Positions 30,435 to 49,461 of a stretch of DNA of 55,375 nt are shown one piece after another. The notes beneath the pieces are model-generated. The model was not told where the DNA came from. It saw only the letters and a program-made list of their open reading frames with translations, and ran no database searches. Position 1 is the first letter of the stretch. The number at the start of each line of letters is the position of its first letter. The DNA comes from Nitrospirota bacterium (GTDB taxonomy: Bacteria > Nitrospirota > 9FT-COMBO-42-15 > HDB-SIOI813). The stretch spans positions 1 through 55,375 of the forward strand of contig JADLDG010000086.1 of NCBI GenBank assembly GCA_020846775.1, in the 5' to 3' direction. Made by a program: the position numbers and the translations under genes.

Positions 30435-31040
30435 GTGCATGATTCTTCAGATGAAAAAATGATCGGCAGGCGGGGATTTTTCAAGGCTGCCTTTACTGAG
30501 ATTACAAAAAAGCTTGTCGAAATTTCTTTAGAGTCTGAGAGTAAAACTGTCAGGCAGCGAAAGTACCTCAGGCCCCCTGGAGCTGTAGAGGAGACCCTGT
30601 TCCTTTCCCGCTGTACACGATGTAATGAGTGTATCAGGGTCTGCCCTCATTATTGCGTCAGAGGCATTGATTCAGACGTAGAATATGGGATAGGCACCCC
30701 TGTAATAATCCCTGAGATTACACCTTGCAGACTCTGTCCTGACCTGCCATGTATCAGTGCATGCAAAGATAAGGCGCTGATGCCCGTAACGGATGTAAGC
30801 AGCGTTAGAATCGGAATCGCATTAATAGACCGTAACAATTGTAATGATTATTCCCCTGATGCCAGTTCACCGTGCAATAAGTGTTACACAGAATGTCCTC
30901 TTAAGGGAGATGCAATTTATCTTGAAGACTCAAAACCAGTAATAGGGGGAGAGAAATGCACCGGATGCGGTATCTGCGAAAATGTATGTGCTGCTGTAAG
31001 TTATCCCCCGGCGGTCAGGGTAATTCCGAAATATATCTGA
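30435..31040 (+). CDS. Twin-arginine ferredoxin-type protein (NapG/MauM-like)
   Basis: A 201-residue iron-sulfur protein with about four cysteine clusters: CTRCNECIRVCPHYC, CRLCPDLPCISACKD, CNKCYTECP and CTGCGICENVCA. This is the multi-[4Fe-4S] pattern of NapG/MauM-type electron carriers. Near the N-terminus GRRGFFKAAF is a twin-arginine motif, but the following stretch is weakly hydrophobic, so export by Tat is likely yet not certain. It would hand electrons to a periplasmic (molybdo)enzyme. Start at GTG 30435 with an alternative ATG at 30459. Its position after the Mo-cofactor genes supports that link. Confidence 0.85.
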   Translation: MHDSSDEKMIGRRGFFKAAFTEITKKLVEISLESESKTVRQRKYLRPPGAVEETLFLSRCTRCNECIRVCPHYCVRGIDSDVEYGIGTPVIIPEITPCRLCPDLPCISACKDKALMPVTDVSSVRIGIALIDRNNCNDYSPDASSPCNKCYTECPLKGDAIYLEDSKPVIGGEKCTGCGICENVCAAVSYPPAVRVIPKYI

Positions 31041-33116: not shown

Positions 33117-33476
33117 ATGCTGATGACCTATCTTCCGGTTTTGTTGATCGCGGGCTTCGTGTCTGCCCTTGCGGTGACCGTTTTGTTTGTCAATTCTATT
33201 GTCAGCCCCAAAAATCCGTTTAAAGAAAAACTATTGCCATGGGAATGCGGTATGGAGCCCATTGGCAGTGCTTCATCAGGGCATTTCAGAATCCATTTTT
33301 TTATCGTAGCAATCCTCTTTGTTGTATTTGATGTTGAAACCGTATTCCTATTTCCATGGGCAGTTGTCCTAAGGGATATCGGCGGGATTGCCTTTGTTGA
33401 AATGCTTATTTTTATAGCCGTGCTTGCTGTCGGACTTATTTATGCCTGGAAGAAAGGTGCTTTGGAATGGGTATAA
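33117..33476 (+). CDS. nuoA: NADH-quinone oxidoreductase subunit A
   Basis: A 119-residue membrane protein with three helices. Conserved loop [16 protein letters not shown] and the acidic helix [21 protein letters not shown] (read as two pieces) define NuoA. It sits at the junction of the peripheral and membrane arms near the quinone site with NuoH, J and K. It is the first gene of the operon and overlaps nuoB by 10 bases. Confidence 0.96.
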
Positions 33477-33943
33477 ACGAGAATGTATTATTTACCACGC
33501 TGGACAATGTTGTAAACTGGGGCCGCAGGTCTGCACTATGGCCGATGACCTTCGGGCTGGCCTGTTGTGCCATAGAAATGATAGCCGCAGGCTGTTCACG
33601 TTATGATACCGACCGGTTTGGCATAGTATTCAGGCCGACCCCCAGGCAGTCTGATGTCATGATAGTGGCAGGGACTATGACAAAGAAGATGGCCCCGGCG
33701 GTGAAGAGATTATATGATCAGATGCCTGAGCCAAAATGGGTGATCGCAATGGGTGGCTGCGCCTCAGCAGGCGGGCCGTTCAATACATATAGTGTGGTTC
33801 AGGGTACAGACCTTGTTGTCCCTGTAGATATTTATATACCCGGGTGTCCACCGAGACCTGAGGCCCTCTTGTTCGGCTTTCTGCAGTTGCAGGAAAAGAT
33901 CCGGAGGGAGATGCCTTCTGTCCTCGAAAAGTTTAAAAGTTGA
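33467..33943 (+). CDS. nuoB: NADH-quinone oxidoreductase subunit B
   Basis: A 158-residue iron-sulfur subunit holding the terminal cluster N2, with ligands in [17 protein letters not shown] (adjacent cysteines), [11 protein letters not shown] and [16 protein letters not shown]2 delivers electrons to quinone at the interface with NuoD and NuoH. Start ATG overlaps nuoA; the stop overlaps the earliest in-frame nuoC codon, implying coupled translation. Confidence 0.97.
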
Positions 33944-33948
33944 GTGTA

Positions 33949-34479
33949 ATGGAATTGAATGATATAGAAAAAGAAAAGGTTCTTATAGAACATCCTGTCC
34001 TGGTTCAGAAGGTCAAGAGCAGGTTTGGGAAATCAATTATCGAAACCGTGATATTCCGTGGCGAGATAACTCATGTAATAGAAACAAGAGATATTGCTGA
34101 TGTGTGCAACTTTCTCAAGTATGATCTCGATTTTCAATTTAATTTTCTTTCAGACGTAATAGGCACTGATTGTCGTCCGCTGAACTCTTTCTTTGAGGTC
34201 GTCTATCAGCTCTACTCTATCCCATTCAGGAATCGCATCAGGTTGAAAGTCAGGGTTAAAGAGGGTGAAAGCGTTCCCTCTGTCACCTCTGTCTGGAGGA
34301 CTGCTAATTTTGCTGAGAGAGAGGCGTTCGATATGGTGGGTGTTGTTTTTGAAGGACACCCTGATTTGAAGCGGATTTATATGCCGCCGGACTGGGAGGG
34401 GTATCCTTTGAGGAAAGACTACCCTCTTGTGGGATATAAGGATCAGTATAATCCGTGCGGGGTTGAGAAGAAGAAATGA
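33949..34479 (+). CDS. nuoC: NADH-quinone oxidoreductase subunit C
   Basis: A protein of about 176 residues of the 30-kDa subunit family. The C-terminal signature EREAFDMVGVVFEGHPDLKR and LPPDWEGYPLRKDYPL-type ending (here MPPDWEGYPLRKDYPLVGY) are diagnostic. It is separate from NuoD rather than fused as in E. coli. The frame opens at a TTG (33940) overlapping nuoB; ATG 33949 is the likelier start. It packs beside NuoD in the peripheral arm. Confidence 0.94.
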   Translation: MELNDIEKEKVLIEHPVLVQKVKSRFGKSIIETVIFRGEITHVIETRDIADVCNFLKYDLDFQFNFLSDVIGTDCRPLNSFFEVVYQLYSIPFRNRIRLKVRVKEGESVPSVTSVWRTANFAEREAFDMVGVVFEGHPDLKRIYMPPDWEGYPLRKDYPLVGYKDQYNPCGVEKKK

Positions 34480-34550
34480 GTATAAGAAGCGATGAGCAAT
34501 GAGTTGAAGCAAGAAGTAAGAAATTAGATATTAGAGAAAATGGAAACTTT

Positions 34551-35759
34551 ATGGCGGATACTTTAGAAGCAACTACAGATAATGCAGAGCTGACGACGCG
34601 GGAGATAACCCTTAATATGGGGCCTCAGCATCCTTCGACTCATGGTGTCATGCACCTCATCCTTTATCTGCAGGGTGAGAAGATTGTTAAGGCAGAGCCT
34701 GACATAGGATACCTTCACAGGGGGATGGAAAAGATTGCTGAAAACCTCCTCTACGGGCAGTTTGTCCCGTACACCGACAGGCTTGACTATCTCAGCAGTA
34801 TGACCAACAACCTCGGCTATGTTTCGGCAGTGGAAAAACTGCTCGATCTTGAGATACCTGAAAGGGGGAAATACATCAGGGTTATAGTATCCGAGCTTTC
34901 GCGGATATCCAGTCACCTCCTTGCTGTAGGCGCATGGGGGCTTGATCTTGGCGCTATTACCATGGTCCTTTATGCATTCAGGGAAAGGGAGATGGTGCTT
35001 GACCTTTTCGAGATGCTTTGCGGTGCCAGACTTACTTATAATTACATGAAGATTGGCGGTGTGAGGGGAGACCTTCCTCCAGGTTTTAAAGAGAAATGTA
35101 CCGAGTTTATCAAAATATTCCCGAAGCGGGTGGATGAATATGAAACCCTTTTGACAGGTAACAGGATATGGCTGCAGAGAAACAAGGGCATCGGGGTTAT
35201 TTCTGCCAAGGATGCAATTGACCTTGGACTTTCAGGGCCCGCTCTCAGGGGGTCCGGTGTCAAATGGGATATAAGGAAAGATAATCCGTATCTTGTATAT
35301 GACAGGTTTGAATTTGATGTGCCGGTTGGTACCAATGGTGATTGTTTTGACAGATATATGTGCAGGGTAGAGGAGATGAGGCAGGCTGCAAGGATAATAT
35401 CTCAGGCTCTGCAGCAGATACCTGACGGGCCTGTGAATGCCAATGCGCCGGAAATAGTTGCGCCGTCGCGGCAGGATGTTTACAACAACATGGAGGCCCT
35501 CATCCACCATTTCAAGATAATTTCTCACGGATTCAAGGCCCCGGTCGGCGAGGTCTATGCTTCTATAGAGGCGCCCAAGGGTGAGCTTGGTTTTTATATA
35601 AAGAGCGATGGCACTGAGAAGCCGTTCAGGGTCAAGATCAGGGCGCCATCCTTTGTAGGATTGCAGAGTATAGACCTGATGTCGAGGGGGGCATATTTTG
35701 CTGATGTAGTATCGGTAATATCGAGCCTCGATCCGGTTTTCGGTGAAGTTGACAAGTAG
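34551..35759 (+). CDS. nuoD: NADH-quinone oxidoreductase subunit D
   Basis: A 402-residue 49-kDa-type subunit: LNMGPQHPSTHGVMHL, DIGYLHRGMEKIAE, then LTYNYMKIGGVRGDLP and the C-terminal RAPSFVGLQSIDLMSRG and DVVSVISSLDPVFGEVD. It forms the quinone head-group pocket with NuoB. The hydrogenase-type active-site cysteines are absent, as expected for complex I. A 71-base gap before it and 54 bases after it contain short AT/AG-rich filler (see repeat finding near 35774). Confidence 0.97.
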   Translation: MADTLEATTDNAELTTREITLNMGPQHPSTHGVMHLILYLQGEKIVKAEPDIGYLHRGMEKIAENLLYGQFVPYTDRLDYLSSMTNNLGYVSAVEKLLDLEIPERGKYIRVIVSELSRISSHLLAVGAWGLDLGAITMVLYAFREREMVLDLFEMLCGARLTYNYMKIGGVRGDLPPGFKEKCTEFIKIFPKRVDEYETLLTGNRIWLQRNKGIGVISAKDAIDLGLSGPALRGSGVKWDIRKDNPYLVYDRFEFDVPVGTNGDCFDRYMCRVEEMRQAARIISQALQQIPDGPVNANAPEIVAPSRQDVYNNMEALIHHFKIISHGFKAPVGEVYASIEAPKGELGFYIKSDGTEKPFRVKIRAPSFVGLQSIDLMSRGAYFADVVSVISSLDPVFGEVDK

Positions 35760-35813: not shown

Positions 35814-36278
35814 ATGCTCTCAGAAGCGGCGGTAAATGAGATAAAGGAAATTAGAAAGAGATATGTGACAGCGCGCTCGTGCATCATGCCTTGTCTCTAT
35901 GTTATTCAAAGGGAGTATGGTTACATTACTGAAGATGGTATGCGGGAGATCGCAAAAATACTTGATATAAACCCTATTCTTGTCTTTGAGGTATCCACAT
36001 TCTATACGATGTACAACAAGAAGCCTGTAGGCAAATATCATGTGCAGGTTTGTACCAACATTTCATGCTCCATTTTGGATGGTGAGCATATTTTGGATGT
36101 TATTTCAAAAAAACTGGGCATCAAGGCAAAGGAAACTACACCTGATAAAAAGTTCACACTCTCAACAGTTGAATGCCTTGGTTCATGCGGAACTGCGCCA
36201 ATGATGCAGATAAATGATAAATATTATGAAAACCTTAATGATGCTAAAGTAGAGGAGATACTTAATAGCTTACGATAG
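35814..36278 (+). CDS. nuoE: NADH-quinone oxidoreductase subunit E
   Basis: A 154-residue thioredoxin-like [2Fe-2S] (N1a) subunit. Cysteine ligands lie in CTNISCSILDG and CLGSCGTAPMM. The N-terminal helical part contains PCLYVIQREYGYITEDGM and VFEVSTFYTMYNKKP. It works with NuoF in the NADH-oxidising module. GAGGAAGAAG precedes the ATG. The presence of E, F and G shows a full NADH-dependent enzyme rather than the 11-subunit form. Confidence 0.96.
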   Translation: MLSEAAVNEIKEIRKRYVTARSCIMPCLYVIQREYGYITEDGMREIAKILDINPILVFEVSTFYTMYNKKPVGKYHVQVCTNISCSILDGEHILDVISKKLGIKAKETTPDKKFTLSTVECLGSCGTAPMMQINDKYYENLNDAKVEEILNSLR

Positions 36279-36296: not shown

Positions 36297-37568
36297 ATGT
36301 TTGAACCCGTAATATTAAAAAATATAAATGTCGCTGATTCACATAAGCTGTCCACCTATCTCGGCAGCGGCGGGTATCAGGGATTAAAGAAGGCGCTGGA
36401 TATGACGCCTGATGCTTTAATCCAGATGGTAAAGGATTCCGGGTTAAGGGGACGGGGCGGTGCTGGGTTTTCTACAGGACTTAAATGGAGCTTCATACCA
36501 AAGGATGCTACTCTGCAGAAGTACCTCTGCTGTAATGCGGATGAAGGAGAGCCGGGTACATTTAAGGACAGGGCAATAATGGAGTATGACCCGCATCAGT
36601 TAATAGAAGGTATGGCTATTGCTTCCTACGCTATCGGAGCCGACACATCATACATCTACATACGAGGTGAATTTGCACTTGCTGCAGACAGACTGGAAGA
36701 TGCTATAAAAGAGGCTTATCAAAAAAAATACCTGGGAAAGAATATCCTGGGTAGCAATTTCAATCATGATATGTATGTCCACAGGGGTGCGGGGGCCTAC
36801 ATATGCGGAGAGGAGACTGCCCTGCTTGAATCAATCGAAGGCAGAAGGGCTTTGCCGCGTATCAAACCGCCGTTTCCTGCGCATGTCGGTCTCTTTGGAA
36901 AACCAACAGTGATAAATAATGTAGAAACGCTTGCCTGTATCCCGCATATAGTGAACAGGGGCGCGAGCTGGTTTGCATCTATAGGTCCGGCAAAAAGCCC
37001 GGGACCCAAATTATATGGAATAAGCGGAAGTGTGAATAAACCGGGGTTATATGAGCTTCCAATGGGGACTCCGCTCAGGGAAATTATTTATACGCATGCA
37101 GGCGGTATAAAGGACGGAAAGAAACTGAAGGCTGTCATACCTGGCGGGGTATCGGCCCCCATGCTTACAGAAAAAGATCTTGATACCCCGATGGACTTTG
37201 ACTCTCTGGCTGCAAAGGGTACGATGCTTGGAAGCGGTGCTGTTATTGTTATTGATGACAGCATGTGTATAGTAAAGGCAGCGCTCATTACGCATGAATT
37301 TTTTCACCATGAATCATGCGGAAAGTGTACGCCATGCAGGGAGGGCCTTGATTGGCTTGTAAAGGTGATGAGGCGTATAGAGCATGGTCAGGGCAAAGAG
37401 GGAGACATCGAGCTTTTGGAGAAATTGTGTGTGGATATATTCGGGAGGACGTTCTGTCCCCTTGGTGACGGCGCAGTTATGGCGCTTAGAGGGGCATTTA
37501 ATAATTTCAGGGAAGAATTTGATTTTCATATAAAAAACAAGAGGTGTATGGTTAATGGCAACCGTTAA
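36297..37568 (+). CDS. nuoF: NADH-quinone oxidoreductase subunit F
   Basis: A 423-residue flavin subunit: GLRGRGGAGFSTGLKWSF binds NADH/FMN, CNADEGEPGTFKDR and GAGAYICGEETALLESIEG line the FMN site, and ESCGKCTPCREG near residue 345 with a later Cys binds cluster N3. It oxidises NADH and passes electrons to the Fe-S chain. Starts 18 bases after nuoE; its 3' end overlaps nuoG by 14 bases. Confidence 0.97.
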   Translation: MFEPVILKNINVADSHKLSTYLGSGGYQGLKKALDMTPDALIQMVKDSGLRGRGGAGFSTGLKWSFIPKDATLQKYLCCNADEGEPGTFKDRAIMEYDPHQLIEGMAIASYAIGADTSYIYIRGEFALAADRLEDAIKEAYQKKYLGKNILGSNFNHDMYVHRGAGAYICGEETALLESIEGRRALPRIKPPFPAHVGLFGKPTVINNVETLACIPHIVNRGASWFASIGPAKSPGPKLYGISGSVNKPGLYELPMGTPLREIIYTHAGGIKDGKKLKAVIPGGVSAPMLTEKDLDTPMDFDSLAAKGTMLGSGAVIVIDDSMCIVKAALITHEFFHHESCGKCTPCREGLDWLVKVMRRIEHGQGKEGDIELLEKLCVDIFGRTFCPLGDGAVMALRGAFNNFREEFDFHIKNKRCMVNGNR

Positions 37569-40020
37569 GATAAACGGTAAAGAGTTGACAGTAGAAGACG
37601 GTACGCTGATACTTGATGCGGCACGGACGGCCGGGTTTGAGATACCTACCATGTGTTATCATGCAAGGTTAAGCAAACTCGCATCATGCCGGGTGTGTCT
37701 TGTTGAGATTGTAGGGCAGAGAAAATTACAGCCGTCCTGTGTAACGCCAGTCATGCATAATATGGAGGTCCTGACCGAGTCTCCTGTCGTGAAGTCTGCC
37801 AGGTCATCTATGATAGAGCTCCTGCTTGCGAATCATCCGCTTGATTGTCCTGTGTGTGATAAGGGTGGTGAGTGTGAGCTGCAGGATGTCACATTCAAGT
37901 TTGGTCCGAGACATAGTCCTTTCGGAGAGAAGAAACGCAGATTTAACGAAGAAGATTACCTCTTAAGTCCTGTTATTGTTCAGAATATAAACAGATGTAT
38001 TCAGTGCAAGAGGTGTGTGCGGATATGTGCCGAGGTAGTCGGAGCAAATGTGCTTGGCTCAATTGGCCGCGGTGCAGGGACTCAGGAGACGAGTTTTGTT
38101 AAGGAATATCTCGATTGTGATCATTGCGGAAACTGTATAGAAGTATGTCCTGTAGGTTCACTGATGAGCAGGACTTTCAGGTATAAGTCGAGGCCATGGG
38201 ACCTTGCCGGTGTTGATACCGTATGTACATTTTGCGGTACAGGATGCCAGCTGACTGTGCAGGCAAGAAAAGGCGAGGTGTTGAGGGTAATCTCCAATCC
38301 TGATACCGGTATAAATAATGAGACTTTATGTGCACGGGGCAGATATGGCTACTCATTCATAAATAGTCATGAGAGGCTTGTCACCCCGTTTGTAAGGGTT
38401 GATGGAAGGCTTGAGCCTGCTACATGGGATGAGGCCGTGGATTCTATCAGGGCAGGATTGAACCAGGCATTAAAAATGGGAGATAAGATAGGCGGCATTG
38501 CCTCAGCCAGGCTTACAAATGAAGAGCTTTATATGTTCCAGAAGCTCATGAGGAATGCATTGAACTCTAACAACCTTGATGCAGGAAGTAGATGGAACAG
38601 TGATACTGTCGCGGATTTCATAGAGGTCATGGGATTAAAGAACGGCGGCGTATCTATCTATGATGCCTTAAAGTCTGATACTTTGATTATAATAGGATCG
38701 GCTATTTCTGAAGAAAACCCGGTGACTGATTACATAATAAGACGGTTATCCTCGTATAGAAAGTTGAACATAATTATAGTATCATCCCGTGGAGTGAGAC
38801 TCGATAGTTCAGCTAAAATGTCATTACGCTGCAAGCCCGGTACTGAAGGAGAAGTAATCAGGACGATTACAAATATTTTATCCGGTCAGGTAAAAGGTGA
38901 ATCAGACAAGGACAGCGCCGGTGCAGCAGAAATTATAAAAAACTCAAGCAGTGTATCAATAGCAGTGGGAACAGATGTTCTCAGGTCCGCTAATCAGTTA
39001 AGTTATTTGAGCAGCCTTGCAGGTATACTGAAGGGACTTGGTAAGGATATTAAACTTATCCCTCTACTTGACCGTGCGAACCAGAGGGGCGCATGGGATA
39101 TGGGTGTTCATCCTGAATTTCTGCCGGGTTACAAAAAAACTGTAAATACAGGGTTGGGCAGTGAGGGGATTGTGCGGGCAGCGCTTAAAGATGAAGTTGG
39201 TGCGCTCTATCTGGCCGGTGAAGATCTGGTCTCTGGTTTTCCGGATGGACGGGCTGCGAGAAAGGCGCTTGGTAAGGTTAAGTTCCTCATAGTGCAGGAT
39301 ATGTTTATGACAGAAACTGCGAAGATGGCGAATGTCGTCCTTCCTTCAGCAAGTTTTGCAGAGAAGGATGGCACCTTTACCAATCAGGAGGGCAGGGTTC
39401 AGCGTCTGAGGAAGCTGCACGATCCTCAGGGTGATATAAAGGCTGATTGGGAGATATTCTCCGCTGTCGGGGAGGCATTGGCGCCGGCATTCGGGGTCAA
39501 ATCGGCAGCTGAAATATTCAATGAGATTAAAGAAGTTGTGCCTGGGTACAGTGACATAAGTTTTGAAAGCCTGAACGGTAACGGTGCAGTTCTGCAATTG
39601 TCTGGGTCCGGTGAGCAGGCAACAGGCAGCCCTGACCCTCATGGCCGGATAAAGGGCCGCAATGAGAAACCTTCAGCTTTGTCCTCAGAGGCGGTTGACA
39701 ATGAATATCCATTTATACTTACGACCGGAAATTACCTTTATCATTCCGGCAGGCTGTCACTTAAGGCTGACAAGCTCAACGAGATAATGAATGAGGCTAT
39801 TGTAGAGCTGAATGCGGAAGATGCAATGACACTCGGCATTACAGAGGGTGTCAAGGTCCGGGTTAAGAGTAAGTCCCATGAGGCATATATGACGGCAAAG
39901 ATAAACCAGGGCATGGCAAAAGGGGTAGTATTTATACCTGAGAATTTTACTGATGTCTATGTGAATATGTTTTTTAATATGGGGGAAGGATTCCCAAGGG
40001 TTAAAGTGCAGATTCCTTAA
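37555..40020 (+). CDS. nuoG: NADH-quinone oxidoreductase subunit G
   Basis: An 821-residue iron-sulfur subunit. N-terminal [2Fe-2S] domain (CYHARLSKLASCRVCLVE), His/Cys cluster N5 (HPLDCPVCDKGGECELQD), ferredoxin clusters (CIQCKRCVRIC, CDHCGNCIEVCPVGSL), then CTFCGTGC plus a later CARG that match the extra N7 cluster. The molybdopterin-oxidoreductase-like domain and the dinucleotide-binding-like end (NEYPFILTTGNYLYHSG) follow. Around residues 685-710 a Gly/Ser/Pro-rich linker shares 16 bases with an intergenic site at 35774. It carries electrons from NuoF towards NuoI. The next gene, a cNMP-binding protein, begins 11 bases on. Confidence 0.95.
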   Translation: MATVKINGKELTVEDGTLILDAARTAGFEIPTMCYHARLSKLASCRVCLVEIVGQRKLQPSCVTPVMHNMEVLTESPVVKSARSSMIELLLANHPLDCPVCDKGGECELQDVTFKFGPRHSPFGEKKRRFNEEDYLLSPVIVQNINRCIQCKRCVRICAEVVGANVLGSIGRGAGTQETSFVKEYLDCDHCGNCIEVCPVGSLMSRTFRYKSRPWDLAGVDTVCTFCGTGCQLTVQARKGEVLRVISNPDTGINNETLCARGRYGYSFINSHERLVTPFVRVDGRLEPATWDEAVDSIRAGLNQALKMGDKIGGIASARLTNEELYMFQKLMRNALNSNNLDAGSRWNSDTVADFIEVMGLKNGGVSIYDALKSDTLIIIGSAISEENPVTDYIIRRLSSYRKLNIIIVSSRGVRLDSSAKMSLRCKPGTEGEVIRTITNILSGQVKGESDKDSAGAAEIIKNSSSVSIAVGTDVLRSANQLSYLSSLAGILKGLGKDIKLIPLLDRANQRGAWDMGVHPEFLPGYKKTVNTGLGSEGIVRAALKDEVGALYLAGEDLVSGFPDGRAARKALGKVKFLIVQDMFMTETAKMANVVLPSASFAEKDGTFTNQEGRVQRLRKLHDPQGDIKADWEIFSAVGEALAPAFGVKSAAEIFNEIKEVVPGYSDISFESLNGNGAVLQLSGSGEQATGSPDPHGRIKGRNEKPSALSSEAVDNEYPFILTTGNYLYHSGRLSLKADKLNEIMNEAIVELNAEDAMTLGITEGVKVRVKSKSHEAYMTAKINQGMAKGVVFIPENFTDVYVNMFFNMGEGFPRVKVQIP

Positions 40021-40031
40021 AGGAGATGAAG

Positions 40032-40502
40032 ATGATAGATCCAAAGTCACTCCGGGAAATAGATTTCCTGACAGACCTCAATGATCAGGAACTTGGTGTC
40101 TTGTCTCAGGTCTTAAAAGAAAACGAGTATCCTACAGGGACCACAGTCTTTAAGGAAGGTGACGATGGTCAGTCCCTCTACATAATAAAGAAGGGTGAGG
40201 TCAAGGCATGCAAGACATCACCTGAAGGGGATCTTCTGACCCTGATGCTGCATAAAGATGGAGATATCTTCGGGGAGATGGCGTTCCTTGACGGTAAACC
40301 AAGATCGGCTACTATAGTTGCGATTGCAGATACCATGACCTACATCCTCGATAAGGATGATTTTGAGACATTGATAGATAATCACCCCAGGTTGATGTAT
40401 AAAATCCTGAGAAACATAGTCTTTCACATTCATACTATTGTAAGGGGAATGAACTCAAGGTATCTCGAAATGATTAATTATATGTGGGGGAGAAAGAGAT
40501 AA
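40032..40502 (+). CDS. Single-domain cyclic-nucleotide-binding protein inside the nuo operon
   Basis: A protein of about 156 residues made of one cNMP-binding domain (Crp/cyclic-nucleotide fold). FLTDLNDQELGVLSQVL opens it, GDDGQSLYIIKKGEVKA forms the barrel, and FGEMAFLDGKPRSATIVA is an intact phosphate-binding cassette with its Gly-Glu and Arg. A C-terminal helix pair (LMYKILRNIVFHIHTIV) follows, but no DNA-binding helix-turn-helix or enzyme domain. It may therefore act by binding a partner, perhaps complex I. The ATG at 40032 is preferred because AGGAG at 40021-40025 is too close to the ATG at 40026. nuoH begins directly after its stop. Confidence 0.87.
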   Translation: MIDPKSLREIDFLTDLNDQELGVLSQVLKENEYPTGTTVFKEGDDGQSLYIIKKGEVKACKTSPEGDLLTLMLHKDGDIFGEMAFLDGKPRSATIVAIADTMTYILDKDDFETLIDNHPRLMYKILRNIVFHIHTIVRGMNSRYLEMINYMWGRKR

Positions 40503-41525
40503 GTGTTTGATCTGATTAATATGAGCCCTGCGTTAATTACGATTTTGGAGGTCGTGATAATCTGTGTCAAAGTCGTTGTCGTCTGCCTGATCCTTTTTAT
40601 GCTGCCTCTGCCGCTTACTTACATGGAGAGAAAAGTCGCAGGCCATATTCAGGTCAGGCTTGGCCCATTCCGTACAGGATTTCATGGTCTCCTGCAGCCC
40701 TTTGCAGACATGCTGAAGTTGATCTTCAAGGAGGATATTATTCCTTCACAGGCTGATCGGTTTCTCTTTAAGATAGCGCCGATAATAGCCATGGTTCCTG
40801 TATTTACCGTCTATGCTACTGTCCCTTTTGGTGAGAGTGTAACTATCCCGTTTATCAATCAGAAACTCAATCTGTATATATCAGACATGAATGTTGGCAT
40901 CCTTTATGTCCTTGCCATAGCAGGTTTGAGTGTCTACGGGATGATTCTTGCCGGCTGGGCATCCAACAGTAAATACCCGATGCTCGGGGGGCTCCGGTCA
41001 TCAGCTCAGATGATCAGCTATGAGCTTGCCCTCAGTCTTGCCGCGGTTGGTGTAGTAATGATGTCTAATTCGCTTAGCCTTTTAGACATAGTGAGGGGAC
41101 AGTATGACTGGCACTGGAATATCATATATCAACCGGTTGGCTTCTTCATCTTCCTCATCGCCGGTATAGCCGAGATTAATCGTATACCATTTGATATGCC
41201 TGAAGATGAAGGCACACTCGGTGCAGGTTATCATTCTGAATACAGTGCAATGAGGTTTGCGTTCTTCATGCTTACAGAATATGTGGCTATGGTTACTATC
41301 TCTACGCTTGGCGTTATCCTCTTCTTCGGTGGCTGGGATGGACCATCATTCCTTCCGGGGATTGTCTGGTTCGTGCTGAAGGTAATAGCCTTTATTTACT
41401 TCTTTATGTGGGCAAGGTTTACTTTTCCAAGATACAGATTTGATCAGTTGATGGCAATAGGGTGGAAGATATTATTGCCGTTAGCGTTATTGAATATCCT
41501 GATTACCGGGCTGGTGATTATATGA
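40503..41525 (+). CDS. nuoH: NADH-quinone oxidoreductase subunit H
   Basis: A 340-residue membrane subunit with about eight helices: TYMERKVAGHIQVRLGPFRTG, GLLQPFADMLKLIFKEDIIP, LGGLRSSAQMISYELALSL and IAGIAEINRIPFDMPEDE are all diagnostic. It contributes to the quinone channel and couples electron transfer to the proton path. It starts at GTG 40503 immediately after the cNMP gene and overlaps nuoI by four bases (ATGA). Confidence 0.96.
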   Translation: MFDLINMSPALITILEVVIICVKVVVVCLILFMLPLPLTYMERKVAGHIQVRLGPFRTGFHGLLQPFADMLKLIFKEDIIPSQADRFLFKIAPIIAMVPVFTVYATVPFGESVTIPFINQKLNLYISDMNVGILYVLAIAGLSVYGMILAGWASNSKYPMLGGLRSSAQMISYELALSLAAVGVVMMSNSLSLLDIVRGQYDWHWNIIYQPVGFFIFLIAGIAEINRIPFDMPEDEGTLGAGYHSEYSAMRFAFFMLTEYVAMVTISTLGVILFFGGWDGPSFLPGIVWFVLKVIAFIYFFMWARFTFPRYRFDQLMAIGWKILLPLALLNILITGLVII

Positions 41526-42100
41526 GTAATAACCGCAAATTAAATTTCAGCATAACAAATATCCTCAAAAAAGTCCTGTTCATAGACCTCATCCAGGGCC
41601 TCGCTGTCACATTTGGCTATACCTTCACAAAGACCATGACCATGAGATACCCTGATGAAGAGACATGGATTCCCTATCAGAGATTCAGGGGGCTTCATAC
41701 ATTAAACAGGAACAAGGCCGGTAGAGAGTTATGTGTAGGTTGTGAGCTCTGCGCAAAGTCATGCCCGACCCAGTGCATTACTGTTGTCCCGATGGAGGAC
41801 AAGACGGGAAAGGGGATTGCAGACAGGGTTGCAGCGAGATGGGAGATAAACCTGTTGCGCTGCATGTTCTGCGGCCTGTGTGAGGATGCATGCCCGACAG
41901 AGGCGCTAAAACTGGGTAGACAGTATGAACTTGCAGGTAAGAAGATGCAGAGACAGTTTCGCTCAAAGGATGAGCTCCTTGCTCCACAGGCAATACCGTT
42001 TGATTTTGAGGGCGGTGTGATAGTCAAGGCACGTTTGGAGAGGGATGAGGATGGCGCTGTTGTGAAGCCGGATTTGAGTTCACAAAAGAGGTGGTGGTAA
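41522..42100 (+). CDS. nuoI: NADH-quinone oxidoreductase subunit I
   Basis: A protein of about 192 residues with two [4Fe-4S] ferredoxin motifs, CVGCELCAKSCPTQC and CMFCGLCEDACPTEAL (clusters N6a and N6b). The preceding PYQRFRGLHTLNRNKAGREL loop is typical. It links NuoG to NuoB. ATG at 41522 is chosen because it overlaps the nuoH stop (ATGA) and the longer frame back to 41462 repeats nuoH sequence. One-base overlap with nuoJ (TAATG). Confidence 0.95.
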   Translation: MSNNRKLNFSITNILKKVLFIDLIQGLAVTFGYTFTKTMTMRYPDEETWIPYQRFRGLHTLNRNKAGRELCVGCELCAKSCPTQCITVVPMEDKTGKGIADRVAARWEINLLRCMFCGLCEDACPTEALKLGRQYELAGKKMQRQFRSKDELLAPQAIPFDFEGGVIVKARLERDEDGAVVKPDLSSQKRWW

Positions 42101-42603
42101 TGGCTGAGATGGTCTTTTTTTTCATATTTGCAGTTATTGCTGTAGTCTCTGCCGTTGGAGTTGTGACATTGCGAAATCCTGTACACAGTGTCCTGTCTCT
42201 TATGGTATGTTTCCTTCAGATGGCGGCGCTGTTTGTTTTGCTCCGTTCTCCCTTTCTGGCTGCGGTTCAGGTATTCGTATATGTCGGCGCCGTCATGGTG
42301 CTTTTCTTATTTGTAATCATGATGCTGGATATACGTCGGGCAAGTATGAAGAGGTTTGTTTCCGGAGGACACTCCTGGGTAATAGCCCTCCTGGTAATTC
42401 TTATTGCTGAAATGGTTCTCATTTTATCCAGGAGCAGATTTGCAGAGATGGCAGTTTCTACAACAAGCCGTCTTGACGGCAGTGTGAAGGAGATGGGTAC
42501 GGTATTGTTTTCAAAGTATCTCCTTCCGTTTGAAATTATTTCCATGATACTTCTTGTAGCCCTGCTTGGCGCAATAGTATTGGGAAAAAAGGAGCTAAGG
42601 TAA
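42100..42603 (+). CDS. nuoJ: NADH-quinone oxidoreductase subunit J
   Basis: A protein of about 167 residues with five helices: [17 protein letters not shown] and [21 protein letters not shown] (two pieces) carry the family signature including the pi-bulge region of helix 3. It belongs to the proton-transfer path next to NuoA, K and H. ATG 42100 is preferred over GTG 42091 because AGAGGTGG is suitably spaced. Confidence 0.94.
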
Positions 42604-42604
42604 G

Positions 42605-42907
42605 ATGGTTCCGTTGTCATGGTACATAATTCTCAGCTCAGTCCTTTTTATCATAGGGACTGCTGGTGTATTGCTCAGAAGGAATATTCTGATAGTCCTG
42701 ATGTCAGTTGAACTGATATTAAACTCAGTAAATATCAACTTTGTTGCCTTTTCGTATTATCATCAGGACCTGAGGGGACAGATATTTTCCATTTTCATTA
42801 TAGCAGTTGCAGCGGCTGAGGTGGCTGTGGCGCTTGGTATATTAATCGCTCTTGTGAGGAACAAATCAGCGCTCAATGTTGATGAAATAAGGACAATGAA
42901 AGGATGA
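42605..42907 (+). CDS. nuoK: NADH-quinone oxidoreductase subunit K
   Basis: A 100-residue three-helix protein: [20 protein letters not shown] holds one conserved membrane Glu and [19 protein letters not shown] the other. Related to MrpC. It links the E-channel to the antiporter-like subunits. One base after nuoJ with AAGGAG upstream; the next antiporter subunit starts four bases after its stop. Confidence 0.95.
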
Positions 42908-42911
42908 TGAA

Positions 42912-44426
42912 TTGGAAGTTATAGAGTCTGTAAGGCCACTTTTAGCGCTATCCGTTTCCTTTATAGCCATGTTTGTGGTGCTGGGATTCAACAAGATGCC
43001 GAATCAGCGCGACATTACATCGTTTGTTGCGGCTATTATAAAGTTTTTGATTGTAATCTCGATGGCCCCGATTATCCTTTCAGGCAATATTATTGAATAT
43101 TCAATGTTTACAGTATTGCCGGGCATAGAGTTCAAGTTCAGGGTGGATGCCCTGGGGATGGTCTTTGCCACCATTGCCTCATTCCTCTGGATCCTGGCTT
43201 CTGTTTATTCCGTAGGCTATATGAGAAGCAGCAAGGAGCATGCACAGACAAGGTTCTTTGCATGTTTTACTGTCAGCATCTTTGCGGCCGTAGGCGGTGC
43301 ATTCTCCGCCAATCTGTTTACACTTCTGGTATTCTATGAAATACTCAGTCTTGCCACATATCCGCTCGTTTATCATAAAGAGACACCGGAGTCATGGGCA
43401 GGAAGTAAAAAATACATTATATACCTGGTAGGAACATCAAAGACATTTTTACTGGCTGCAGTAATCCTGACCTTCGTAATTGCAGGCACCCTTGATTTCG
43501 CGCCTCATGGTCTGCTGGCCGGTGTGAATGCCTCACCTGTTCTTCTGACAGTAGTCTATATCTGTTTTCTTATCGGTTTTGCAAAGGCTGCAATCATGCC
43601 ATTCCACGCATGGCTGCCGGCAGCCATGGTGGCGCCGACCCCCGTCAGTGCGCTTCTGCATGCAGTTGCCGTTGTCAAAATGGGTGTCTTCTGCGTCCTT
43701 CGTGTAGTATTTAATGTATATGGCATTGATCTGATGCGTGATCTCAACCTTGGTATTGCAACTGCCTATGTAGTTTCGTTTACGATAATATTGTCTTCAA
43801 TCTATGCCCTGACGCAGGACAATCTTAAGAGAAGGCTTGCATATTCAACAGTGAGCCAGCTTTCTTATATAGTTCTTGGGGCTGTTTTACTTACGCCGAG
43901 CGGCATGGTAGGCGGTATTGTACATATTGCGAATCATGCATTTTCAAAGATTACTCTCTTCTTTTGTGCAGGTTCAATTTATTGTGCGGCGCACAAGACA
44001 GAGATAAGCGAACTCTCAGGCATAGGGCGAAAACTGCCGTGGACAATGACTGCATTCTTCATAGCATCTCTGAGTATGATAGGGGTATATCCGGCAGCCG
44101 GTTTTATCAGCAAGTGGTATCTTGCTATGGGTTCGATTGAGGCGCATGAGATTCCCATACTTGTTGTTCTTCTTGTAAGTTCAGTCCTTAATGCTGCATA
44201 TTTCCTGCCTATAACGTACAAGGCTTTTTTTGAAAAAGAGGGCAATAAACATAATAAGGAGTGGGACCACGAATTACATAAAGACAGTCATGACGATCAC
44301 GGTCATGGAGAGATTAGAGAGATACCGCTTGTTGCCATACCACTTGTCGTTACGTCTGTAATCTCCATAATAGTGGGCATTTATCCGGACTACTTCCTTG
44401 GTCTGGCAAAGGTAGTAATCAGGTAA
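42912..44426 (+). CDS. MrpD-like proton-translocating antiporter subunit (extra complex I module)
   Basis: A 504-residue, about 14-helix member of the NuoL/M/N-MrpA/D superfamily. The key charges are kept: Glu in FYEILSLATYPLV (helix 5), Lys in GFAKAAIMPFHAWLP (helix 7), Lys in AVAVVKMGVFCVL (helix 8), and Lys in AGFISKWYLAMG (helix 12). The motifs HNAFSKIT-like HIANHAFSKITLFF and AYSTVSQLSY point to MrpD-type rather than NuoL. It lacks a NuoL lateral helix. A His/Asp-rich loop (KDSHDDHGHGE) lies near residue 460. It replaces nuoL at its usual place after nuoK. TTG start with AAAGGATG upstream. Confidence 0.9.
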   Translation: MEVIESVRPLLALSVSFIAMFVVLGFNKMPNQRDITSFVAAIIKFLIVISMAPIILSGNIIEYSMFTVLPGIEFKFRVDALGMVFATIASFLWILASVYSVGYMRSSKEHAQTRFFACFTVSIFAAVGGAFSANLFTLLVFYEILSLATYPLVYHKETPESWAGSKKYIIYLVGTSKTFLLAAVILTFVIAGTLDFAPHGLLAGVNASPVLLTVVYICFLIGFAKAAIMPFHAWLPAAMVAPTPVSALLHAVAVVKMGVFCVLRVVFNVYGIDLMRDLNLGIATAYVVSFTIILSSIYALTQDNLKRRLAYSTVSQLSYIVLGAVLLTPSGMVGGIVHIANHAFSKITLFFCAGSIYCAAHKTEISELSGIGRKLPWTMTAFFIASLSMIGVYPAAGFISKWYLAMGSIEAHEIPILVVLLVSSVLNAAYFLPITYKAFFEKEGNKHNKEWDHELHKDSHDDHGHGEIREIPLVAIPLVVTSVISIIVGIYPDYFLGLAKVVIR

Positions 44427-44453
44427 AAGGCATAATTTTTCGGGAGACGCTCT

Positions 44454-44708
44454 ATGCTTGAAAAGATAATTAACTTTATAGGCGATGCAAAGAACGCGAA
44501 GACAAACAGGATAATTTTCTATATCATACTTGTGGTCGTATTTGCCTCGGATTTCTTTGTAGATCGGGAACATGCCCATTATATATGGGATAAGATACCC
44601 GGATGGGGAGCTTTCTACGGGTTTATCTCCTGTGTCCTCATTATTGTAGTCTCGAAGTTTCTTGGCCATCAGGGAAAACTGATGAAGAAAGAGGATTATT
44701 ATGACTGA
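44454..44708 (+). CDS. Small two-helix membrane protein of the antiporter module
   Basis: An 84-residue protein with two predicted membrane helices (TNRIIFYIILVVVFASDFF; FYGFISCVLIIVVSKFLG) joined by a His/Trp-bearing loop (DREHAHYIWDKIPGWGAFYG) and ending KKEDYYD. I recall similar small proteins beside Mrp-like subunits in other anaerobe-type and Nitrospirota operons, but no function. GGGAGACG lies upstream. It overlaps the next antiporter gene by eight bases, so it is probably a structural or assembly partner of that subunit. Confidence 0.8.
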   Translation: MLEKIINFIGDAKNAKTNRIIFYIILVVVFASDFFVDREHAHYIWDKIPGWGAFYGFISCVLIIVVSKFLGHQGKLMKKEDYYD

Positions 44709-46467
44709 GTCGTTCTTTCATCCAGCGATACTCTTTATAGCAGGCGCCTTTTTAATTCCTCTTTTATGGGGAAAGGTACAGAAGGTATATCTTCTTATAA
44801 TTCCGGCAATCGCATTTTTAGTCTGTATTGGTGCGTCACAGGGTACGTACGGTGTATATCACTTCCTCGGGAACGAGATCATAATTGCAAAAGTAGACAA
44901 GCTCAGTTTAGTATTCTCTTACGTCTTTACCATAATGGCTTTCATCGGTATGATGTATGGCCTGCATGTTAAAGATGCCGGCCAGCACGTGTCGGCATAC
45001 CTCTATATTGGCGGCGCACTTGGTGTGACCTTCGCAGGTGATTACTTTACCCTCTTTTTATTCTGGGAAATCATGGCCTTTTCCTCAGCATACTTAGTGT
45101 TCGCTCAGAGAGAATCTGCGGCTGTCAAGGCAGGTTTCAGATATATCCTTGTGCATATAGCAGGCGGGGTATTACTGCTCGGAGGTATCATACTGCATTA
45201 TGCAGAAACAGGTTCCATCCTGTTCGGCCCCATTGAGCATAGCGGGAGCCTTGCATTCTATTGCATTATGACCGGTTTCATACTGAATGCCGCAGTACCT
45301 CCTCTTCATGCATGGCTTGCGGATGCATACCCTGAGGCAACTGTTACCGGTGCAGTATTTATGTGTGCCTTTACGACAAAGACTGCAGTATATGTCCTGG
45401 TCAGGGCATTTCCAGGCACAGAAATACTTGTCTGGCTCGGTGTTATAATGGCGCTCTACGGTGTCGTATATGCTGTGCTTGAGAACGACTGCAGAAGACT
45501 TCTTGCATACCACATTGTAAGTCAGGTCGGTTACATGGTTGCCGGTGTCGGTATGGGTACATATATGACGCTTAACGGTTCAGTGTCTCATGCCTTTTCT
45601 CACATCCTTTATAAGGCACTCCTGTTCATGGGTGCAGGCGCAGTAATTCAAATGACTGGAAAACGTAAACTGACGGAATTAGGTGGTCTTTACAGGACGA
45701 TGCCGGTTACATTAACCCTCTATATGATAGGGGGGTTTGCTATCTCTGCATTTCCCCTGTTCAGTGGTTTTGTGAGTAAATCCATGGTAGTTGCAGGTGC
45801 GGCTGCGGACCACAGACCAATCGTTGCCTTGTTGTTGACAATGGCGTCAGCAGGAACCTTCCTGCACACAGGCCTTAAACTCCCGTACTATATGTTCTTT
45901 GGCAAGGACTCAGGTCTGAGGCCAAAGGAACCGCCGATGAATATGCTTATTGCCATGGGTATTGCTGCGTTTCTGTGCATTGCCATTGGAGTAGTTCCGG
46001 GTCAGCTCTACAGAGTCCTCCCGTATCCCGTTCACTTTGAACCTTACACAGGAGACCATGTTACCAGTGCACTCGGCATATTGATGTTCACTGCGCTCGG
46101 ATTCTTCCTGCTGCTTAAAAAACTTGACCCTGAACCAACGATAAGCGCTGACACAGACTGGTTCTACAGGAAGGGTGCGTTGGTATTCATGTGGTTTGCA
46201 AGAAAGCCTGTCGGGGCCTGGGAAGGCTTTATAACGGAAATAACCAATACAGCCATAATGCCGTTTATTTATGCGGTTGCAAGGATAGGTTTCTGGATTG
46301 ACAAAAACATAGTTGACAAGGCCGTAAATGGTATTGCAGGCATTATTATGTCCCTGAGTGCCGGTGTAAGGCGAGTGCAGTCAGGCCAGCTTCAGCACTA
46401 TGCCGTAGGTATGGTTTTAGGGATCATGGTGATCATCTTTATATTTTCGATGATAGTGAGGGGATGA
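44701..46467 (+). CDS. Mrp-like antiporter subunit with NuoL-type C-terminal anchor
   Basis: A 588-residue polytopic protein of the NuoL/MrpD superfamily. Helix 5 Glu is present (LFLFWEIMAFSSAYLVF) and helix 8 Lys (CAFTTKTAVYVLVR). At the helix 7 position, where most relatives have Lys, the sequence is GFILNAAVPPLHAWLADAYPE, so Asn replaces it. After helix 14 come about 120 extra residues (SADTDWFYRKGALVFMWFARKP onward) and a final helix preceded by RRVQSGQLQHYAVGMV. That is the hallmark of the NuoL lateral-helix anchor. It therefore probably takes NuoL's distal place. It overlaps the 2-TM gene by eight bases. Confidence 0.9.
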   Translation: MTESFFHPAILFIAGAFLIPLLWGKVQKVYLLIIPAIAFLVCIGASQGTYGVYHFLGNEIIIAKVDKLSLVFSYVFTIMAFIGMMYGLHVKDAGQHVSAYLYIGGALGVTFAGDYFTLFLFWEIMAFSSAYLVFAQRESAAVKAGFRYILVHIAGGVLLLGGIILHYAETGSILFGPIEHSGSLAFYCIMTGFILNAAVPPLHAWLADAYPEATVTGAVFMCAFTTKTAVYVLVRAFPGTEILVWLGVIMALYGVVYAVLENDCRRLLAYHIVSQVGYMVAGVGMGTYMTLNGSVSHAFSHILYKALLFMGAGAVIQMTGKRKLTELGGLYRTMPVTLTLYMIGGFAISAFPLFSGFVSKSMVVAGAAADHRPIVALLLTMASAGTFLHTGLKLPYYMFFGKDSGLRPKEPPMNMLIAMGIAAFLCIAIGVVPGQLYRVLPYPVHFEPYTGDHVTSALGILMFTALGFFLLLKKLDPEPTISADTDWFYRKGALVFMWFARKPVGAWEGFITEITNTAIMPFIYAVARIGFWIDKNIVDKAVNGIAGIIMSLSAGVRRVQSGQLQHYAVGMVLGIMVIIFIFSMIVRG

Positions 46468-46468
46468 A

Positions 46469-47983
46469 GTGATAGAAGCAGTTCATAACAGTATGGGTAT
46501 CCCGATATTAAGTATAGTAACATTTCTGCCGCTCCTTGGAGCACTGATTCTCCTTTTTGTAAGAAATGCCGTTGCAGCCCGGTGGATTGCCCTGGCCTTT
46601 ACAGTCGTTGATTTCCTTGTTGCCATCCCGATCGTCCTGAAGTTCGACAGCACAACGCACAATATGCAGTTTGTGGAACATTATATCTGGATTCCATCAT
46701 GGAATATTACATACTTTATGGGTATAGACGGTATAAGTGTCCTGTTTATATTCCTGTCGTCCCTGCTTGGCTGGGTATGTGTGCTTGCGTCGTGGCGCTC
46801 CATCCAGCATAAGGTTAAAGAATTCATGATGGCGCTTCTTGTCATGCAGACGGCTATGATAGGCGTCTTCTGCGCCCTTGATTTCTTTCTGTTTTACTTA
46901 TTCTGGGAAGCGATGCTTATCCCTATGTATCTGATCATCGGAGTCTGGGGGGGCAAGAACAGGATCTATGCAGCGATTAAGTTCTTTCTCTATACACTGG
47001 CAGGAAGTGTGCTCATGCTTATCGGAATTATTGCACTCTATTTTGCCGGCGGCCATACCTTTGACATCATAGAACTCATGAAACAGAACTATCCTTTCGC
47101 ATTTCAGTTCTGGGTATTTCTCTCATTCTTCATAGCATTTGCAATCAAAGTCCCGATGTTTCCTTTCCATACATGGCTGCCTGATGCCCATGTGGAGGCG
47201 CCGACAGCAGGGAGTATTATACTTGCCGGAGTGCTGCTTAAGATGGGGACATACGGGCTTATTAGATTCAACCTGACACTTTTTGAAGAGGCCGCGAGGT
47301 ACTTTACACCTCTTATACTTGTCATGTCAGTGATAGGAATAATATATGGCGGTTATCTTGCACTTGCGCAGAGCGACATAAAGAAACTTATTGCCTATTC
47401 GAGTATAAGCCACATGGGTTTTGTTACTCTTGGACTCTTTGTCTATAACTCAGCTGGCGTCGAAGGGGCTATAATGCAGATGCTGAATCACGGCATCACA
47501 ACAGGGGCGTTGTTCCTGTGTATCGGGTTGATATATGAGAGGACCCATACGAGAGAGCTTGCTGACTACGGCGGCCTTGCCAAGGCGGTGCCGATTTATA
47601 CTACATTTTTTACGATTTTTATTCTGTCATCCATGGCTATCCCGGGTACCAATTCGTTCATAGGTGAGTTCCTGATACTGGCCGGGGCATTCGGATACAG
47701 TAAGGTTGCCGGTGCGTTTTCAATAATAGGCGCCATGCTCGGTGCAGTTTATCTGCTCAGTATGTATAAGAAGGTTGCTCTTGGAGAGATCAATCACAAA
47801 GGTCATATACATGAGGCACATGATGTCAATGTCAGAGAGCTCGCAGCAATGGTTGCCCTTGCCATATTTGTCTTTTGGATCGGAGTGAATGCAGCTCCGT
47901 TTGTCGAGCTCATACATCCATCAGTTAGTCACCTGCTGGAACAGCTTAACTCAGCCGGGAATATGGTTGCTCATGTTAGATAA
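46469..47983 (+). CDS. nuoM: NADH-quinone oxidoreductase subunit M
   Basis: A 504-residue, 14-helix antiporter-like subunit with full charge set: Glu in FYLFWEAMLIPMYLIIG, Lys in FAIKVPMFPFHTWLPDAHVEA, Lys in AGVLLKMGTYGLIR and Glu in NSFIGEFLILAGAF. The last Glu (rather than Lys) in helix 12 is the NuoM mark. It starts at GTG 46469 two bases after the previous stop. Confidence 0.95.
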   Translation: MIEAVHNSMGIPILSIVTFLPLLGALILLFVRNAVAARWIALAFTVVDFLVAIPIVLKFDSTTHNMQFVEHYIWIPSWNITYFMGIDGISVLFIFLSSLLGWVCVLASWRSIQHKVKEFMMALLVMQTAMIGVFCALDFFLFYLFWEAMLIPMYLIIGVWGGKNRIYAAIKFFLYTLAGSVLMLIGIIALYFAGGHTFDIIELMKQNYPFAFQFWVFLSFFIAFAIKVPMFPFHTWLPDAHVEAPTAGSIILAGVLLKMGTYGLIRFNLTLFEEAARYFTPLILVMSVIGIIYGGYLALAQSDIKKLIAYSSISHMGFVTLGLFVYNSAGVEGAIMQMLNHGITTGALFLCIGLIYERTHTRELADYGGLAKAVPIYTTFFTIFILSSMAIPGTNSFIGEFLILAGAFGYSKVAGAFSIIGAMLGAVYLLSMYKKVALGEINHKGHIHEAHDVNVRELAAMVALAIFVFWIGVNAAPFVELIHPSVSHLLEQLNSAGNMVAHVR

Positions 47984-48021
47984 TCAGGATCTCAATTCGA
48001 AGGGATGAGGGTGGGTTATTA

Positions 48022-49461
48022 ATGAATTTTGATATCAGCAATATAATATTCAGTATGCCGGAGATAATCGTTCTGGCCGGGGCATGCCTGCTCCTTATGT
48101 TCGATCTGATACTTCCTAAAGGTCAGAAACAGGCGATAGCTTATGTCGCCCTGGCTGTTGTCATTATAGCCGGAGCTGAGACCTGGCTGCTTTCTGATAA
48201 TATTGCCCATATATTTAACCGGATGTTCATGTTCGATGGATATTCAATATTCTTTAAATTTGTATTCTACATAGGTACCCTGCTTGCAATACTGCTTTCA
48301 ATCAATTACATGAAGATTGAAGGGGAGGATTATGGAGAATATTATGTTCTGATTCTGTTTGCACTCAGCGGAATGATGATAATGGCCTCTGGCACTGACC
48401 TCCTGAGCATATATGTAGGACTTGAGTTGATGGCTCTTTCCATATACATACTAACCGGTTTTACACAGCGCTCAGGAAAATCAAATGAGGCTGCCATGAA
48501 ATACATTATCCTTGGTTCTTTCTCCTCAGGTGTTTTACTATATGGCATGTCTCTCATCTATGGTATTACCGGTACTACTCAGTTGTCTGATCTTGCATTG
48601 GCGCTTAAAGGGCAGGATAACATGGATATGTCATTAATACTTGCTGTTATTTTCTTAGTGGCCGGCTTTGGTTTCAAGGTCGCTGCCGTGCCCTTCCACA
48701 TGTGGGCGCCGGATGTTTATGAAGGGGCTCCAACATCAATTACTGCATTCATGTCAGTAGGTCCAAAGGCTGCTGCGTTTGCAGCCATCCTGCGGATTTT
48801 CATTGAGGCCCTCGGTCCGGTGGCAGGGAGCTGGGAAACAATACTCGCCCTGGTTGCAGTCCTGACAATGGCGACAGGAAGCATCTTTGCGTTGATTCAG
48901 ACTAACATAAAGAGGATGATCGCATACTCCAGTATTGCTCATGCTGGCTACGCACTCCTTGGTGTAGTTGCAGGCGGTCGGGACGGCATATCAAGTGTGA
49001 TGTTATACATGCTTATATATACTTTAATGAACATGGGTATTTTCGGATTGATCATCATGATGAGGAAAGGGGACTTCCGCGGCGAAAATATTCACGATTA
49101 CACCGGATTGGCTAAGACTAACAAATTAGCGGCACTGCTGATGCTGATATTCCTTTTCTCTCTGGCCGGAATCCCGCCGACCGGAGGTTTTGTAGGTAAG
49201 TTCTATATTTTTATGGCCCTGGTAGGTCAGGGACTGATTCCACTTGCCGTCATTGCTGTAATCTTCAGCGCAGTCTCGGCATTCTTCTATATCCGCATAG
49301 TAATGTTGATGTACATGAAGGAGCCAACCCACAAATTTGACCTTGCAACTACCCCTGCCAGCGGCATTGCCATAGCTATAGCCTTGATCGGCATACTCAT
49401 CATAGGTGTTCTGCCTTCCTGGTTCCTCGAGATGGCCCAGAGGGCCGCGTTTCCTGTGTAA
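48022..49461 (+). CDS. nuoN: NADH-quinone oxidoreductase subunit N
   Basis: A 479-residue, 14-helix subunit: YVGLELMALSIYILTGF (Glu), GFGFKVAAVPFHMWAPDVYEG (Lys, in two pieces), MSVGPKAAAFAAILR (Lys) and GGFVGKFYIFMALV (Lys). It ends the nuo operon. GAGGGTGGG precedes the ATG. The 38-base gap after nuoM is the longest in this part of the operon. Confidence 0.96.
   Translation: MNFDISNIIFSMPEIIVLAGACLLLMFDLILPKGQKQAIAYVALAVVIIAGAETWLLSDNIAHIFNRMFMFDGYSIFFKFVFYIGTLLAILLSINYMKIEGEDYGEYYVLILFALSGMMIMASGTDLLSIYVGLELMALSIYILTGFTQRSGKSNEAAMKYIILGSFSSGVLLYGMSLIYGITGTTQLSDLALALKGQDNMDMSLILAVIFLVAGFGFKVAAVPFHMWAPDVYEGAPTSITAFMSVGPKAAAFAAILRIFIEALGPVAGSWETILALVAVLTMATGSIFALIQTNIKRMIAYSSIAHAGYALLGVVAGGRDGISSVMLYMLIYTLMNMGIFGLIIMMRKGDFRGENIHDYTGLAKTNKLAALLMLIFLFSLAGIPPTGGFVGKFYIFMALVGQGLIPLAVIAVIFSAVSAFFYIRIVMLMYMKEPTHKFDLATTPASGIAIAIALIGILIIGVLPSWFLEMAQRAAFPV

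Follow-up and report, generated by a model that had tools for sequence, protein, structure and literature searches.

HoxI is a subunit with the fold of cyclic nucleotide-binding (CNB) domains, which occurs in a complex-I-related NAD-reducing hydrogenase (PMC3702609, PMC3189943). In the soluble enzyme of Cupriavidus it is reported to form a homodimer on the NuoEFG-like diaphorase and to provide an NADPH activation site (PMC3702609). A HoxI-like CNB gene has also been described in a group 3b [NiFe]-hydrogenase operon (PMC12319191). For complex I itself, the text of a survey of accessory subunits mentions neither "cyclic" nor "cNMP" (PMC12361115), and the open-access literature searched contained no description of a CNB protein as a subunit of either complex I or a NuoEFG-type formate dehydrogenase (FDH). 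The view of the initial annotation that there is no described bacterial case of such a protein therefore holds for complex I within this literature, but it overlooked HoxI (PMC3702609, PMC3189943). What would be new here is the host enzyme, while a HoxI-like regulatory subunit is a kind of protein already known.

The window analyzed here, a 55,375-nucleotide stretch of a Nitrospirota genome, contains a nuo operon with a CNB gene between nuoG and nuoH (Table 1). An open reading frame spans positions 40026–40502 of the forward strand, and the ATG at 40032, which the initial annotation had chosen as start, was preferred as it is preceded by the AAGGAG site. Reading frame, ribosome-binding site and domain assignment agree on a stand-alone gene for a single CNB domain, tightly enclosed by nuoG and nuoH, just as it had been annotated. 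The match to PF00027 (residues 32–118, E 2.9e-25) reached 88.5 bits at a gathering cut-off of 27.5, and the predicted structure and its Foldseek matches show the CNB fold, so that the protein belongs to this family; a Pfam scan of its 156 residues returned no other domain. It is not a transcription factor of the CRP/FNR type, as it ends after the C-helix without a C-terminal helix-turn-helix. Its phosphate-binding cassette has both canonical residues, Glu82 and Arg91, intact.

Table 1. Features of the nuo operon and its CNB gene (positions in the window).
Feature	Position	Strand	Basis or remark
nuoA, nuoB, nuoC, nuoD	33117–35759	+	ORFs; gene order kept in relatives
nuoE	35814–36278	+	ORF; tblastn synteny with related nuo operons
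nuoF	36297–37568	+	ORF; PF01512 at 36429–36944
nuoG, directly upstream of CNB gene	37555–40020	+	TIGR01973 (E 1.8e-158); PF00384
AAGGAG ribosome-binding site of CNB gene, overlapping nuoG stop	40020–40025	+	Sequence
CNB gene (156 aa), putative accessory subunit of complex I of the HoxI kind	40032–40502	+	PF00027; AF2; synteny
Phosphate-binding cassette FGEMAFLDGKPRSAT, residues 80–94	40269–40313	+	Glu82, Arg91
Second half of C-terminal helix, conserved, VRGMNSRYLEMINYMWGR, residues 137–154	40440–40493	+	Conservation; AF2 model
nuoH, GTG start right after CNB stop codon	40503–41525	+	NF004741 above cut-off
nuoI, nuoJ, nuoK, two MrpD-like antiporter subunits, nuoM, nuoN	41522–49461	+	NCBIfam; PF00420 (nuoK)

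The two MrpD-like antiporter subunits of the operon (42912–46467; NF006236 and NF009310, both above cut-off) occur without a canonical NuoL and bring the number of pump-like subunits, together with NuoM and NuoN, to four. Upstream of the operon (30435–31040) lies a gene for a ferredoxin-type protein of 201 amino acids with several 4Fe-4S (Fer4) domains.

The AF2 model of the CNB protein, a monomer predicted from an alignment of 60 relatives, has a mean pLDDT of 92 and consists of two short N-terminal helices, the CNB beta-roll and a long C-terminal helix (residues 119–152). The closest solved folds found by Foldseek were a CNB protein from Methylobacillus (3gyd) as well as CRP and GlxR. In CRP, the DNA-binding domain continues at the point where the C-terminal helix ends the CNB protein. 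Conservation was 0.90 for the cassette and 0.86 for the end of the C-helix (residues 137–153) compared to 0.74 for the entire protein, which makes the ligand cassette and the helix end the two best-kept regions. We propose that the latter could be a dimer or docking surface, which replaces a DNA-binding domain.

The arrangement nuoG-cnb-nuoH was present in all nine same-family genomes with an assembled nuo operon, including the window genome, and the eight other orthologues at this position are 72–87% identical to the window protein. No CNB gene was found in a tenth same-family genome (G002); as this MAG is only 71% complete and a NuoD match is missing too, this absence is uninformative. A scan of named genomes yielded 54 loci with nuoG-cnb-nuoH (45–80% identity), three of which are truncated on one flank by the end of the contig. 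Their source genomes are MAGs, either of Nitrospirae or filed under Deltaproteobacteria or Proteobacteria; six Nitrospirae loci are contigs of the same-family genomes already counted, and the approximately 48 further loci are mostly from MAGs deposited as Deltaproteobacteria. With 17 further Nitrospirota loci, the co-occurrence inside nuo operons is thus conserved, and the position between nuoG and nuoH is far above chance and no stray insertion. Among the observations that had been named as speaking against a role in complex I was a lack of the gene at this position in every close relative; the same-family operons clearly showed otherwise. The idea that the protein is a conserved accessory component of complex I is further strengthened by the named loci and by the location of relatives beside nuoEFG in other families. 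In a pairwise comparison of the window genome with a congener, dN/dS of the CNB gene was 0.085 and lay inside the range of nine nuo genes (0.03–0.10), so the gene is constrained like that of a structural subunit. NuoD of the MAGs deposited as Deltaproteobacteria (L062–L107) is mostly 64–74% identical to that of the window, whereas other Nitrospirota families reach 59% at best. This suggests, at the level of sequence similarity, that the entire nuo operon including the CNB gene was transferred.

Relatives of the CNB protein are not restricted to this position. A profile search across 396 genomes of the phylum yielded many further full-length relatives, and 60 of them were sampled for their neighbourhood, of which 55 were linked to complex I operons (17) or NuoEFG-type FDH operons (38). 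As NuoD was found in 60 of 61 phylum relatives, but the CNB gene in some families only, the gene is a lineage-specific addition and not a core subunit. At least six other Nitrospirota families (f6, f36, f11, f5, f17 and f21) exhibit the arrangement nuoD-cnb-nuoE. The full-length relatives of f6, located between nuoD and nuoE, are 36–40% identical to the window protein, and one f6 genome has nuoN-cnb-nuoE. A second locus of that same genome (L036; G046:C144:9045-13625) is a free cnb-nuoE-nuoF-nuoG block without other nuo genes and with the CNB gene at its head. According to the identities of their Pfam domains, the FDH operons with CNB relatives encode NuoE-, NuoF- and NuoG-like subunits; the CNB gene is placed there either between fdhA and the gene for formate-tetrahydrofolate ligase (FTHFS) or in the order nuoE-nuoF-cnb-nuoG'. 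Such operons were observed across Nitrospirota (L040, L041, L042, L043, L049, L052, L156–L158, L166, L168–L175, L176–L186 and others), often with the formate-tetrahydrofolate ligase gene next after the CNB gene. An NADH-oxidizing NuoEFG-type module is the common partner in complex I, in the CNB-linked FDHs and in the hydrogenase of HoxI.

An absolute rule that the CNB gene always lies beside nuoEFG does not hold, as the three genomes of family f33 (L162, L194, L195) have nuoD-cnb-nuoH in an operon that lacks nuoEFG; their nuoF genes are located at other sites of the genome. The five sampled relatives outside nuo and FDH operons all belong to family f29 (L161, L187, L188, L191, L192) and have a His cassette; at L161, the one f29 locus inspected, the neighbours are genes for moaA, a trypsin/PDZ protease and an amidotransferase (GATase). 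Another stand-alone CNB gene (L048) had been guessed from gene sizes to be linked to a hydrogenase, a guess that was dropped after Pfam identified transketolase and peptidase genes; the gene sizes at L050 equal those at L048. In a tree of 48 CNB proteins, FDH-linked members and members located between nuoD and nuoE grouped together. HoxI and the hydrogenase-linked protein were left on long branches, therefore no single origin is claimed.

HoxI of Cupriavidus necator (WP_011154015.1, annotated as cyclic nucleotide-binding domain protein) aligns with the window protein over most of its length with 26% identity (BLASTP E 2e-16; hhalign 97.7%) and is, judged by sequence, its closest characterized relative. 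The similarity is at the level of the CNB domain only: 17 of the best 20 matches of HoxI are linked proteins at a base rate of 74%, a mild enrichment. The top two matches (L096 and L097) come from complex I loci, and in the tree HoxI has no clear place. By analogy, the window protein may work like HoxI; orthology is not claimed. The window genome contains a second stand-alone CNB gene (L044:1740-2195; G000:C67) in an operon for a group-3-type [NiFe]-hydrogenase. It directly follows a maturation-protease gene, as in the order hoxH-hoxW-hoxI of Cupriavidus, and its product is 22% identical to the window protein and lacks both Glu82 and Arg91.

The initial annotation had proposed that the protein could be an accessory subunit tuning the assembly or activity of complex I in response to cAMP, cGMP or c-di-GMP. 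The intact Glu82 and Arg91 would fit a true receptor of this kind, and the nearest folds of the protein include the cAMP-bound CRP and GlxR. Across the wider family, however, these residues are not kept. At position 91, the 122 linked sequences contain Arg (50) or His (72) and no other residue, and the 42 unlinked CNB sequences contain Arg (29), His (8, five of them from f29) or others (5). Both residues occur within the nuoG-cnb-nuoH clade, where Arg is the commoner one (46 of 60 alignment rows), whereas every linked relative outside this clade has His, as HoxI does. Glu82 is replaced by L, I, V or T in several complex-I-linked families. Moreover, a search for class III, class I and CYTH cyclases (PF00211, PF01295, PF01928) detected none in the window genome, which is 99.6% complete, and only one of the same-family genomes searched (G006) contains a class III cyclase (PF00211). 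As the Arg and Glu positions vary among linked relatives and no cyclase of these classes was detected, cAMP, cGMP and c-di-GMP are doubtful though, in the case of cAMP, possible ligands, and a cyclic-nucleotide receptor controlling complex I appears distinctly unlikely. Owing to the analogy to HoxI, NADP(H) would be the leading candidate.

The CNB protein could also act transiently, in the assembly or maturation of the peripheral arm, instead of being a stoichiometric subunit. The location of its gene beside the EFG genes and between modules, the fact that the majority of the complex I operons in the phylum have no CNB gene, and the maturation protease upstream of the CNB gene in the hydrogenase locus of the window genome are in agreement with this idea, which nevertheless seems unlikely, given that the conserved cassette suggests ligand sensing and that HoxI, the characterized relative, is an enzyme-bound subunit and no maturase. 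That the protein acts in trans as a signaling protein and merely shares a transcript with the nuo genes is highly improbable: stand-alone CNB proteins do exist in unrelated operons (L048, f29), yet the linkage to complex I or FDH recurs at various positions in many families, and the protein is conserved across two groups of bacteria and has neither a helix-turn-helix nor an output domain.

We therefore favour, with a probability of roughly 0.6, the view that the CNB protein is an accessory subunit of respiratory complex I, similar to HoxI, and would tune the NADH side of the enzyme via nucleotide sensing. The gene is under purifying selection inside nuo operons, it nearly always adjoins the nuoEFG block, its product consists of one domain, and relatives are found in FDH operons. 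As the gene lies inside the complex I genes of dozens of uncultivated bacteria and has relatives in FDH operons, the protein probably represents a regulatory subunit that has been overlooked in NADH-handling enzymes. The reading as a HoxI-like subunit is weakened by f33 breaking the EFG rule, by the f29 relatives outside redox operons, by the restriction of the similarity to the CNB domain and by the His of HoxI being Arg in the window protein. Mechanistically, the protein would dimerize in the manner of CRP, via the long helix at its C-terminus, and the dimer would dock by the conserved helix end (residues 137–153) on the peripheral arm near NuoEFG. A nucleotide in the cassette pocket, with NADP(H) or another cellular nucleotide being likelier than cAMP, may then change the contact of the dimer with the enzyme and thereby tune NADH-side activity; for example, an oxidized or resting enzyme could be switched on or the direction of electron flow be chosen. 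A wider reading, which we regard as possible though slightly on the doubtful side, is that of an undescribed, widespread CNB-fold family regulating NuoEFG-type modules of complex I and FDH in Nitrospirota and other lineages. In most of its members, a His-type cassette would sense not cAMP but some other nucleotide, possibly NADP(H). The nuoG-nuoH clade would for the most part be of the Arg type with a different ligand, and complex I would be nucleotide-gated.

We know of no report of a bacterial complex I that is under direct allosteric control by a subunit dedicated to nucleotide sensing. If the favoured reading is true, NADH oxidation or reverse electron flow would be set at the enzyme instead of by transcription, and HoxI, which is known from hydrogenases so far, would gain a general role in NADH-handling modules, for which complex I and NAD-linked formate dehydrogenases offer clear test systems.

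Compared to known systems, the window protein shares the CNB beta-roll, the phosphate-binding cassette and the C-helix with CRP/FNR regulators and with the CNB domains of PKA-R and PKG. Unlike these, it carries neither a helix-turn-helix nor a kinase domain nor a second CNB domain; the end of its C-helix is conserved instead. The accessory subunits known from bacterial complex I (homologues of NDUFS4, NDUFS6, NDUFA12 and NDUFA9; PMC12361115) are likewise non-core, but belong to unrelated families, and the four pump-like subunits of the window operon resemble the rhizobial "green complex I" (PMC9040806). Group 3b [NiFe]-hydrogenase operons (PMC12319191) also pair a CNB protein with a multi-subunit redox enzyme linked to NAD(P), although they lack the NuoEFG module present in the nuo operon of the window; the hydrogenase locus L044 of the window genome is similar to them. 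The closest parallel is the [NiFe]-hydrogenase HoxFUYHI2 of Cupriavidus necator. Like the window protein, its HoxI is a stand-alone CNB protein of about 160 amino acids without a DNA-binding domain, both are co-encoded with a NuoEFG-like NADH diaphorase, and their C-terminal helix regions can be aligned. The cassette of HoxI (GELGFIDQTPHSLS) is similar to that of the window protein, which does not share the His of HoxI, a feature noted in this analysis and no accepted criterion, but has Arg91 in its place. The gene hoxI follows the protease gene hoxW without touching the diaphorase genes, whereas the CNB gene of the window adjoins nuoG, and HoxI belongs to a soluble hydrogenase, the window protein putatively to the membrane-bound complex I.
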